A stretch of DNA of 45,691 nt from Bacteroidota bacterium (GTDB lineage Bacteria > Bacteroidota > Bacteroidia > Palsa-948), in the NCBI GenBank assembly GCA_016213405.1, contig JACRAM010000011.1:1-45691 (forward strand), read 5' to 3'. Made by a program: the position numbers and the translations under genes. The notes below the pieces were generated by a model. That model was not told the origin of the DNA. It did not search any database and worked only from the letters and a program-made list of their open reading frames with translations. Positions within the stretch are counted from its first letter, which is position 1. Every line of letters starts with the position of its first letter. Positions 12,368 through 45,656 of this stretch are shown here, piece by piece.

Positions 12368-13651
12368 TTAGAGTACAAGTTTATTATAAAAATTTAACAG
12401 ACGCTTCGTATTATCCTTTAATGATAGTTTTTTCTGGGCTAAGATTACATTTTCAGCAAGTATTGTATAATCATCTTGAAAAAGAATTTTTCGCAAATCG
12501 AGCAAGTCTTGCTTGTCAATCAAAATACCTGATTTATATCGCTTTACTATCCACGACTGATAGACAATGTTCTCCGATATAATAACAGGTATTCCCGCTT
12601 CAATAAAATTAAAAAGCTTCAATGTTGTACAGTATTTGTATTTGTCATACGATTGTTTATGCAATTCTTTATTGACAAATCCAGTATGAAAACCAAAATG
12701 ATACTTCGATAATTCCTCAGCCAGTTTATCCTGCGCCACAGGTTCATGAAAATGAAAAAAGGAATTCTGCTTTGCAATTTGCTCGTACTCTTCATAATCA
12801 GCCCGTATATTTGAGGGGCTGGGATAAATATGAAAATGGATTTCTTGCTTTGAGAGAATGTTTATGATTTCATGGAACTGTATGTTGCCGTATTGTTTTG
12901 GATTGCGGTGAGAGCCCGCCACGCCTCCGGCATAGACCAGAGACCCCTCTCCATCTCTCCCCCAAGGGGAGAGGGAAGAAACCCCTTCCCTTCGGGAAGG
13001 AAGGGATGGGCTCTTCTGAAACACATCGTCATCGCAGTAAAGCGGGAAGAAAATGGTCTTGGGTTTTTTCTTTATGCCGTATTTTCTGAACGCCACATTG
13101 GGCTCGAGCGAATGAGCAACAAGTCCATCGGCTTTCTCCAAACATTCTCTTTCATGCGGCAGTTCTTTTTTCAGCCAGCCGAGCGCGGGATTCAAGCCGT
13201 AATAAATGGAATAAACATCCTGCATATCTAAAACAAACGGAACTTTCAGCGTTTGCCTTGCGATGTTGGGATAATAACTCTTGGGAGCAAAAGCGTGCAT
13301 GAGGGAAACTTGGGGAAGTTGTTTCAGAATCCGTTTCAGATGAAATGCGTTGCGGAAAAGAAACACGGCATCAAACTCATTGTTGCTGAACTTTTCAAAA
13401 TAACCGCGCTGGCTGCATACAAGAATGGTTGAATATTCTCCGCTTCGCTTCACCCACTTGGCTATTCTCGGAATCCGTGCAGGCAGTTGTTCTCCGAGAT
13501 AGACAATAACTTTCTTTTCGCTGCGTTTCAGCTTGCCGGTGCCTGTAACAGGAACATTCAGCGCGTATAAAATGAAATCAAATACTGAACTAAACTTTTC
13601 GTACAAAAACCATTTCAGTTTGACAAAAAATATTTTCGCTGATGCGTTCAT
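12368..13651 (-). CDS. Glycosyltransferase (GT4-like, GT-B fold), with an in-frame palindromic element insert
   Basis: A 427-residue protein resembling family 4-type glycosyltransferases for surface polysaccharide. Visible features are an N-terminal half with VIVYLGEQLPAR, SLMHAFAPKSYYPNIAR and VPFVLDMQDVYSIYYG, and a C-terminal half with SLVYAGGVAGSHRNPKQYGN and LKLFNFIEAGIPVIISEN. The latter is the usual nucleotide-sugar site with its acidic residue (FIEAG). The ATG at 13651 is preferred over a TTG at 13660. Residues about 214-237 come from a bipartite palindromic repeat (12941-13012, 72 bp = 24 codons) placed between the two halves just before the C-terminal domain, so it likely forms a loop. 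It is divergent from the flippase and precedes the acetyltransferase. Donor and acceptor are unknown. Confidence 0.8.
   Translation of the reverse strand: MNASAKIFFVKLKWFLYEKFSSVFDFILYALNVPVTGTGKLKRSEKKVIVYLGEQLPARIPRIAKWVKRSGEYSTILVCSQRGYFEKFSNNEFDAVFLFRNAFHLKRILKQLPQVSLMHAFAPKSYYPNIARQTLKVPFVLDMQDVYSIYYGLNPALGWLKKELPHERECLEKADGLVAHSLEPNVAFRKYGIKKKPKTIFFPLYCDDDVFQKSPSLPSRREGVSSLSPWGRDGEGSLVYAGGVAGSHRNPKQYGNIQFHEIINILSKQEIHFHIYPSPSNIRADYEEYEQIAKQNSFFHFHEPVAQDKLAEELSKYHFGFHTGFVNKELHKQSYDKYKYCTTLKLFNFIEAGIPVIISENIVYQSWIVKRYKSGILIDKQDLLDLRKILFQDDYTILAENVILAQKKLSLKDNTKRLLNFYNKLVL
12941..13012. repeat. Bipartite palindromic element, in frame inside the glycosyltransferase
   Basis: Hairpin 1 is CTCTCCCC/GGGGAGAG near 12955-12973. 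Hairpin 2 is CCTTCCC-TTC-GGGAAGG at 12984-13000. The element ends in GGATGGGCT at 13012, like the copy at 42879-42966. Its length of 72 bp keeps the reading frame. Confidence 0.8.
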
Positions 13652-13743: not shown

Positions 13744-15243
13744 ATGGGCATCGTTCAGCGCGACAGCATACGCATCATGGTCATCTCTTATCTGGGAGCT
13801 GCCATCGGTTATCTGAACAAGATCCTGCTCTTCACCAACTTTCTTACGGCAGAACAGGTAGGTCTCTCCAATATTATCATCAGTATTGCAGCCGTGTACG
13901 CTCAGTTTTCAGGATTAGGAATGACAGGTGTTACCATAAAATTCTTTCCATATTTCAAGGACAAGGAAAAACATCATCACGGATTTTTATTCTGGACATC
14001 CCTCCTTTCCTTATTCGGCTTCCTGCTGCTGACCATTATCTTTTTGCTGTTTAAATCTCCCATCATAAATTATTATTCTGAAAAATCCCCTTTGCTCGTT
14101 GAGTATTCGTTTTACGTGATTCCGCTTGCGCTTGCCACTGTTTATTACAACCTGCTGGAAGTTTTCCTGCGCTCGCTGATGAAAACGGTGGTATTCTCGC
14201 TCGTCAACGAAATTGTTTTACGCCTGATGATCTCCGCCAGCATTTTGCTTTTCGCATTTAAGCTTGTTTCTTTTCACGAATTTGTCATCATTTATGTAGG
14301 AGTGAATTGTTCCGCCACGCTCATCCTGCTGGTGTACATGGCTTACCTGAAACAGCTTTTATTCAAACCCGAATGGAGCAGCACCACCAAACGTTTTTTC
14401 AAAATTGTTCTCCATTACGGTTCGTTTGCCATCGTTGGCAACATGAGTTACATTCTGATGAATAACATTGACGCGCTGATGGTAGCTGCCATGATCGGGT
14501 TGAAGGATACGGGAGTTTACACCACCGTGTTTTTTATAGCAACGGTCATGCTAATTCCCTACCGCTCGCTGGCAAGAGTGGCGAGTCCGCTGGTGGCGCA
14601 GTTCTGGAAAAACCGCGAGATGAAAAAAATGCACGACCTCTACAAAAAAGTTACGCTGATGAGTTTGATTACCGGATGTTTTATTTTCCTTGGATTGTGG
14701 GTGAACATTGATAATATTTTTCATTTCATTCCGGATGAATACGCATCGGGCAAATATGTTTTTCTTTTTCTCGGCATCGGGCGGTTGTTCGACATGGCAA
14801 CGGGCATCAACGGAATCATCCTTGTCACTTCAAAAAAATACAGATACGATCTGCTCTTCACCATTTTGCTGATTGGCGTAATGATTGCGCTGAACCTTGC
14901 CTTTATTCCAACATACGGCATTGAAGGCGCCTCGTTCGCTACCATGCTTTCCATTATCACGCTCAACACGCTTCGCATTATTTACATCTGGAGCGTGTTT
15001 GGCATGCAGCCCTTTGACTTTAAAAGTGTGTGGGTGATTCTTATCGGGGTTTTCACGCTCGGAGTGATTTATTTCATCCCTCCTATCCTGAATGTTTATG
15101 CCGACATGATTATCCGCTCGCTTATTTGCCTTGTGCTTTACGCTGCGCCTGTGTTATGGCTGAAACTTTCTGAAGAAGTGAATGAGAATGCAATAAAAAT
15201 TCTGAAGGCAGCCCACCTTTATCCTCCCGAAGGGAGGAAATAA
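13744..15243 (+). CDS. Polysaccharide/lipid-linked oligosaccharide flippase (Wzx-like, MOP superfamily)
   Basis: A 499-residue inner-membrane protein with about 14 hydrophobic segments, starting MGIVQRDSIRIMVISYLGAA. The N-terminus with the segment AEQVGLSNIIISIAAVYAQF is characteristic of Wzx-type exporters, which move undecaprenyl-linked sugars across the membrane. Later hydrophobic helices include IGNMSYILMNNIDALMVAAM-type and LPTYGIEGASFATMLS-type segments, also usual for the family. It is divergent from a glycosyltransferase-acetyltransferase pair, which supports a surface-glycan role. A heptamer array sits 12 nt upstream of the start. The last residues (YPPEGRK) resemble peptides encoded by the palindromic repeats, so the C-terminal tail may be repeat-derived. 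The substrate is unknown. Confidence 0.85.
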   Translation: MGIVQRDSIRIMVISYLGAAIGYLNKILLFTNFLTAEQVGLSNIIISIAAVYAQFSGLGMTGVTIKFFPYFKDKEKHHHGFLFWTSLLSLFGFLLLTIIFLLFKSPIINYYSEKSPLLVEYSFYVIPLALATVYYNLLEVFLRSLMKTVVFSLVNEIVLRLMISASILLFAFKLVSFHEFVIIYVGVNCSATLILLVYMAYLKQLLFKPEWSSTTKRFFKIVLHYGSFAIVGNMSYILMNNIDALMVAAMIGLKDTGVYTTVFFIATVMLIPYRSLARVASPLVAQFWKNREMKKMHDLYKKVTLMSLITGCFIFLGLWVNIDNIFHFIPDEYASGKYVFLFLGIGRLFDMATGINGIILVTSKKYRYDLLFTILLIGVMIALNLAFIPTYGIEGASFATMLSIITLNTLRIIYIWSVFGMQPFDFKSVWVILIGVFTLGVIYFIPPILNVYADMIIRSLICLVLYAAPVLWLKLSEEVNENAIKILKAAHLYPPEGRK

Positions 15244-15248
15244 AAAAC

Positions 15249-15418
15249 CTAATAACTCATGTTACGCAGAAAAGCAAATAACCGCAGAGAAAACAGAGAA
15301 AACAACACGCGGAGAGTCGCAGAGAAAATACAATACTGTATGTATTCTCAGCAGTTCTCTGCGTACAACCTCAGCGGACTCTGCGGTAAAAATGTATTTG
15401 CGTAACATGAGCTAATAA
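15249..15418. mobile_element. Foldback/MITE-like element with 13-bp TIRs and 7-bp target duplication
   Basis: CTCATGTTACGCA (15256-15268) and TGCGTAACATGAG (15399-15411) are perfect inverted repeats. They are flanked by perfect direct repeats CTAATAA (15249-15255 and 15412-15418). Inside, ACCGCAGAG (15281-15289) pairs with CTCTGCGGT (15379-15387), and GAGAAAATAC pairs imperfectly with GTATTCTC around the centre, so most of the 156 bp folds back. No coding frame is present. The structure matches a non-autonomous transposon; the transposase source is not in this window. Confidence 0.82.
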
Positions 15419-15433
15419 TAAAAATAGGATTAT

Positions 15434-15465
15434 ACTCCTTCCCTTCGGGAAGGTTGGGATGGGCT
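15434..15465. repeat. Half copy of the bipartite palindromic element
   Basis: CCTTCCC-TTC-GGGAAGG followed by TTGGGATGGGCT is one arm of the element. It ends 1 nt from the stop codon of the response regulator, where it could also act as a terminator. Confidence 0.7.
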
Positions 15466-15466
15466 T

Positions 15467-16162
15467 TCAATCTGTGAATTTATACCCCACTCCCCTCACC
15501 GAAAAAAAATGTTTCGGCTCTCGCGGGTTTTTTTCAAAGTACTTGCGGAAACTCACAATATAATTATCAATCGTTCGGGTGGAAGGATAGACATCATATT
15601 CCCATATGGTTCGTAAAATATCTTCGCGCGACACCACTTCATTCTTCCGTTCAATCAGCAGTTTCAGCAGTTGAATTTCCCGCTTGGAAATAGTCTGTTT
15701 TGTTCCGTCTCTTCCGATAATATCAAAAGTCAGGTAATTGATTTCGCATTTTCCGAATTTATAATTCTGATCGGAGATCCGGGATTCGGGATTTTGATTT
15801 TTTCTTTTCACAAGTTTGCTTACTCTCAGCAAAAGTTCTTCCAGGTTGAACGGCTTTGCCAGATAATCATCAGCTCCCAGTTTTAATCCGTGTATCCGCT
15901 CATCGCTTGCGCCTTTTGCAGTGAGAAAAATTACGGGCACTTCTGTATTCTCCAACCGGATTTTCTGACAAAGCGTATAGCCGTCCATTTCGGGAAGCAT
16001 TACATCCAGCACAATCAGATCAAAATGAGCTGAACGAAATGTTTCATAAGCAACTTTTCCATCACGGGCATCGGTAACATTATATCCTTCCATCTCCAGA
16101 TTCAAATGGATGGTGTTTCGTAGGTTTTCTTCGTCCTCAACTAATAATATTCTGTGTGCCAT
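15467..16162 (-). CDS. OmpR/PhoB-family two-component response regulator
   Basis: A 231-residue cytoplasmic transcription regulator. The receiver domain (1-117) has the acidic pair E9/D10, phospho-acceptor D53 in LIVLDVMLPEMDG, the Thr of FLTAKG and the Lys of YLAKPFNLEELL. The C-terminal winged helix (about 135-231) contains SKREIQLLKLLIERKNEVV, TRTIDNYIVSFRKYF and RGVGYKF. The linker (about residues 123-134) is encoded by a degenerate heptamer array (15769-15796). No sensor kinase is nearby; yraN lies 2 bp upstream on the same strand, so the two are likely one operon. The target genes are unknown. Confidence 0.93.
   Translation of the reverse strand: MAHRILLVEDEENLRNTIHLNLEMEGYNVTDARDGKVAYETFRSAHFDLIVLDVMLPEMDGYTLCQKIRLENTEVPVIFLTAKGASDERIHGLKLGADDYLAKPFNLEELLLRVSKLVKRKNQNPESRISDQNYKFGKCEINYLTFDIIGRDGTKQTISKREIQLLKLLIERKNEVVSREDILRTIWEYDVYPSTRTIDNYIVSFRKYFEKNPREPKHFFSVRGVGYKFTD
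15769..15803. repeat. Degenerate heptamer array inside the response-regulator linker
   Basis: On the plus strand the units are GATCGGA, GATCCGG, GATTCGG, GATTTTG and ATTTTTT. The array encodes part of the interdomain linker (around NPESRISDQN) without a stop codon. Confidence 0.65.
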
Positions 16163-45478: not shown

Positions 45479-45487
45479 TAAGGGTTT

Positions 45488-45523
45488 ACCCCGTTGGATA
45501 AAATCCAATATCCTACGGGGTTT
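45488..45523 (+). terminator. Terminator after gldA
   Basis: ACCCCGT (45488-45494) pairs with ACGGGGT (45515-45521), with an inner TGGAT/ATCCA stem, followed by TT. The stem is GC-rich but the T tract is short. Confidence 0.55.
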
Positions 45524-45656
45524 ATGTGCTTGATTTCAGATATAGTGCGAATGAAAAAAATATTTAACACAGAGAACACCGAGCAGACAGATTCTGTGTT
45601 ATCTCCAAATTTTTTTTGAAGATTTTTATATACTATTTCACTATTTAAAACTTTTC

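Follow-up and report, generated by a model that had tools for sequence, protein, structure and literature searches.

What is the short foldback that separates two convergent genes in this contig, and where did its interior come from? The stretch lies in a window of 45,691 nucleotides, the whole of the DNA analysed, which belongs to the assembly of a Bacteroidota bacterium (G000, 95% complete). Upstream, on the forward strand, is a polysaccharide biosynthesis gene (Polysacc_synt, 13744-15243), with its stop codon just ahead of the insertion, and downstream, on the reverse strand, is the convergent gene for an OmpR-type response regulator (15467-16162). On the forward strand a CTAATAA heptamer (15249-15255) leads into the left terminal inverted repeat (TIR), CTCATGTTACGCA (15256-15268), an end of the ISAba11 group, and an identical heptamer (15412-15418) follows the right TIR, TGCGTAACATGAG (15399-15411), which reads as CTCATGTTACGCA on the reverse strand. 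The left half of the interior (15269-15333) is an arm of CGCAGAG-type words and the right half (15354-15398) an arm of CTCTGCG-type words, both on the forward strand, while the foldback centre between them (15334-15353) is the place that in a cassette relative is occupied by a 378-bp GxxExxY gene. The preliminary description of this DNA had reported perfect 13-bp TIRs with CTAATAA on either side, and the sequence is exact on both counts. A scan of the whole window gave no second pair of exact 13-bp inverted repeats set this far apart, and exact 7-bp direct repeats at the same spacing were found 7 times among 45,491 positions. The same description gave a 156-bp interior that folds on itself and has no gene. 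The fold is strong relative to shuffled sequences (RNA -63.8 kcal/mol, z = -10.2; DNA z = -8.1) and no open reading frame of at least 80 amino acids is present within the 156-bp element, but the 156 bp include the TIRs and the interior proper is 130 bp.

A strong fold placed between convergent genes, and within an older inverted repeat, would also suit a structured RNA or a bidirectional terminator that is not mobile. This is very improbable, and as the sole explanation it is refuted by dispersed copies that differ in their flanks and target duplications; moreover, an Rfam scan of the window found only one tRNA and no match for the element. A secondary influence of the mobile element on transcription is possible. 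The older repeat is of an interspersed AGCCCA...CCTTCCCGAAGGGAAGG type, with arms at 15210-15245 and 15430-15465 between which the insertion fell; it has a relative at 12988, and most of the genus mates searched contain many more. Comparison with relatives lacking the element, which had been proposed as a check, was unsuccessful: in six genus mates no empty site was found. The response regulator is conserved in them and the upstream neighbour is not, the upstream gene not being collinear.

Since further copies exist in the genome, the element is not a chance palindrome. A genome-wide search, also proposed at the outset, was productive: a BLAST search of the host genome with the element gave 32 matching pieces, among them about a dozen complete or partial copies of 77-92% identity, and a pattern search with the TIRs gave 23 matches as against none for the reversed control. 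Two TIR-like singletons, at C9:22990 and C70:5571, are unpaired and were put down to chance. Many copies stop at contig ends, which suggests that the assembly broke on the element; as such copies may have been collapsed in assembly, the copy number and the identities of 100% are rough. Other copies have the same ends and exact 7-bp duplications of their own, as the reading of a MITE with a 7-bp duplication had anticipated: TGACTAA on C124, TTAGTAA on C116, TACTTGA on C50 and TTACTCC at the copy near 84.7 kb of C16 (C16:84.7k). A second copy on C124 has TTAGTAA, exact once a 1-bp register shift arising from a deletion in the left TIR is applied. Contig ends can also be paired by inference through their duplications, C23 with C16 by TGATTAA and C14 with C35 by TTATTAA. 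Copies lacking the duplication or having different ends had been named as evidence against this reading; what was found is a few one-base mismatches (6/7 at C36 and C16:44.8k) and a 4/7 match at C23:39.6k, as expected of older or recombined copies, and the reading is kept. Short, geneless, bounded by TIRs and present in multiple dispersed copies with site-specific duplications, the element belongs among the MITEs. Its age is another matter. The exact duplication is in keeping with the recent transposition first proposed, but that proposal is weakened by the identities, which are 92-96% between the window copy and its siblings and 93-100%, mostly 98-100%, among the siblings themselves. The recent burst is therefore that of a neighbouring subfamily, which the copy in the window seems to predate. 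A copy 86% identical to the element was found in a Flavobacteriales MAG, so the MITE is distributed beyond the host genus; a scan of viral contigs gave no match to its ends. The sequence near 45577 (ACACAGAGAACACCGAGCAGACAGATTCTGTGTTA), which had been put forward as a possible relic of another copy, does contain words of the same kind, but it has no TIR and is not such a relic. In that region (45480-45600) a CCCCGTTGGATA...TATCCTACGGGG hairpin repeat adjoins CACAGAG words, and hairpins of this kind are nested within several MITE copies (C36, C19, C53, C54 and C16).

The ends were found in 24 of 395 genomes of the class and, besides G000, are at high copy number in four. In two genomes (G314 and G346) matching ends enclose units of approximately 1.12 kb with one transposase gene each, and four of the G346 units carry exact 7-bp duplications. 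The G314 transposase matches the IS701-family model NF049921 of NCBIfam with 295 bits, above the curated cut-off of 250, and DDE_5 in Pfam. Its plasmid-borne relatives, from Stanieria, Cyanobacterium HL-69, Polaromonas, Acinetobacter schindleri and Thiothrix, without exception have the ends CTGATGTTACGCA, and that of Cyanobacterium HL-69 is annotated as 'group ISAba11'; exact 7-bp duplications flank the Polaromonas and Acinetobacter insertion sequences and are absent from those of Stanieria, Cyanobacterium and Thiothrix. The element is placed in the ISAba11 group of IS701 by the match of its TIRs to these autonomous members, which encode IS701-family transposases. It shares the 13-bp ends with the members in Bacteroidota and with the five plasmid records from other phyla, but differs in having no transposase and, relative to the 4-5 bp reported for the group, in its 7-bp duplication. 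The search for a transposon with the same ends thus succeeded in other Bacteroidota and on plasmids but not in G000: a search of that assembly, 95% complete, turned up no ISAba11-group transposase. Movement in trans is for this reason the best reading, and the enzyme supplied in trans that had been postulated from the element alone is supported by inference from the same-ended insertion sequences.

The length of the duplication deserves comment, as reported values are 4 bp for IS701 (PMC2266710) and 5 bp for ISAba11 (PMC7885321), while the direct repeat here is 7 bp both in the window copy and in the autonomous copies with matching ends. The 7-bp repeats are mostly of the form T-N5-A. It is conceivable, though unlikely, that the true duplication is 5 bp next to a 14-bp TIR (ACTSATGTTACGCA), with the extra matches reflecting target preference or chance. 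The T that comes first and the A that comes last in nearly all of the repeats would then be the fourteenth TIR base, in line with the 5-bp repeats published for ISAba11 (PMC7885321), and at C16:44.8k the first outer base is mismatched while the inner five bases are identical. Against this, the window copy has C as the first base on both sides and C16:84.7k has C as the last base on both sides, each predicted by a 7-bp duplication alone; the outer bases agree in 13 of the 13 copies listed, these having been picked for 7/7 matches. From their sequences, the two copies with equal outer bases other than T or A would favour a duplication of 7 bp.

The interior matches, in order, both flanks of a GxxExxY gene elsewhere in the genome (C88:42030-42407; BLAST E-values 2e-12 and 8.5e-8). 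Alignment of the left half runs through the 5' flank to the last base ahead of the ATG, and that of the right half starts in the 3' flank directly past the stop codon. With both flanks matched, what lies within the ISAba11-type ends is a cassette devoid of its gene, and the interior would represent the residual frame of a small GxxExxY (PD-(D/E)XK-like) cassette from which the gene has gone. At the C88 cassette the sequence AACATGA looks like what is left of a TIR, but it proved to be the start codon of the gene that follows. The words could instead belong to a generic low-complexity hairpin, terminator-like or REP-like, that uses CGCAGAG by chance and has no GxxExxY origin. CGCAGAG hairpins do occur in two further TIR shells of this genome, with the arms reversed in some, but the match is two-sided, to one particular GxxExxY gene, and bounded by the start and stop codons of that gene. 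It also continues past the words into AATGTATT, and syntenic orthologues of the C88 gene in two other genomes (G001 and G004) have similar arms. A chance origin of the words is accordingly judged improbable. For an origin from a cassette the sibling at C16:84.7k is instructive: amid TTCAATATTC words, and within the TTACTCC duplication, it retains an ORF of 122 amino acids for a four-helix-bundle protein (TIGR02436; S23/IVP). As this copy has both a gene and its own duplication, the same shell also moves gene-bearing cassettes. No intact TIR-arm-GxxExxY-arm-TIR unit with the ends of the element was found, although the four-helix-bundle equivalent was.

Other shells carry related material. CGCAGAG hairpins (L096, L097 and L100, on C36, C54 and C110 of G000) are enclosed by two kinds of ends, AGGACTTACGCA, where the duplication is 7 bp, and GGRTGTACGACAA, where it is 9 bp, and in G013 a GxxExxY gene (L196; C46:9025-9375) lies in a 537-bp TIR unit with GTTACTGTTCRGG ends and an exact 8-bp duplication, AAATAGTT. 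The cassettes are therefore carried by several IS-like shells. In the AGGACTTACGCA shell the order of the arms is reversed, as if the outer ends of the cassette had been joined. Two loci of a genome from an unrelated family (L149 and L135, G072) have a hairpin enclosed by ISAba11-type ends and lacking an intact gene; it is built of AAATTTG/CAAAT words, which resemble four-helix-bundle arms.

G000 contains 34 such genes (L058-L091), 11 of the GxxExxY and 23 of the four-helix-bundle type. Each gene generally lies between two arrays of short words in inverted orientation to each other; the words are specific to the cassette, and its two arms match. The complementarity of own arms averaged 36 in G000, where mismatched arms gave 19.8 (P = 4e-22) and shifted controls 18.8. 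Across 84 cassettes from eight genomes the corresponding values were 34.4 for own and 18.4 for mismatched arms, and in 50 of the 84 the 5' arm picked its own 3' arm as the best. Between cassettes with protein identity below 60% the arms were near background, whereas own arms gave 34-36. Repetition of 7-mers in the arms also exceeds that in controls. Judged by these comparisons, the paired arms undergo concerted change. In the GxxExxY proteins E27, D67, E77 and K79 are kept in 34/34, the pattern of a predicted PD-(D/E)XK nuclease site; sequence matching to solved structures gave no match.

MITEAba12 (PMC6382973) is a bacterial MITE that, like this element, is short and geneless, has IS-type TIRs and target duplications, is multicopy and is presumed to be mobilised in trans, but it belongs to another IS family and has a 9-bp duplication. 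Where the present element differs from bacterial MITEs is in its interior, which comes from the flanks of a gene cassette. Mobile insertion cassettes consist of a passenger gene between MITE-type ends (cf. PMC5444012). C16:84.7k is similar in having one passenger gene between the ends of the element; what it carries, however, is no resistance gene but a four-helix-bundle gene with word arms of its own. The intervening sequence of Coxiella 23S rRNA has an S23p four-helix-bundle ORF, terminal inverted repeats and GACAGAT tandem heptamers ahead of the start codon (PMC4990558). In this anatomy it is the same as the cassettes, but it lies within rRNA whereas the cassettes here are intergenic and some have GxxExxY genes.

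Taken as a whole, the element is with high confidence an ISAba11-group (IS701) MITE that was moved in trans, with an interior made of the flanking arms of a gene-less GxxExxY cassette. In a possible history, ISAba11-type ends would have captured a GxxExxY cassette, the gene would then have been lost, and the short foldback would have been amplified, as it could be without a gene because the ends alone are required. A DDE transposase acting in trans, since gone from the assembly, would have cut the element and inserted it at an A+T-rich, TTANTAA-like target. As a MITE it is of an ordinary kind and adds another non-autonomous derivative to a known IS group; new are the derivation of the interior from GxxExxY cassette flanks and the system of paired word-arm cassettes that this exposes. 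Searches of the open-licence literature on GxxExxY, PF13366 and four-helix-bundle repeats found no account of the word arms. That the GxxExxY and four-helix-bundle genes form undescribed minimal mobile cassettes, whose arms co-evolve and which ride with or without their gene in unrelated IS ends, the window MITE being a gene-less one, is a wider proposal that we hold to be evenly poised. The interest lies in this cassette system more than in the MITE. GxxExxY (TIGR04256) and four-helix-bundle (TIGR02436) proteins are common, unexplained families that are here housed in paired-arm cassettes, and the finding ties the intergenic genes to the long-known intervening sequences of 23S rRNA. The arms stay complementary while their sequence turns over, which offers a testable link between the protein, the flanking repeats and mobility.
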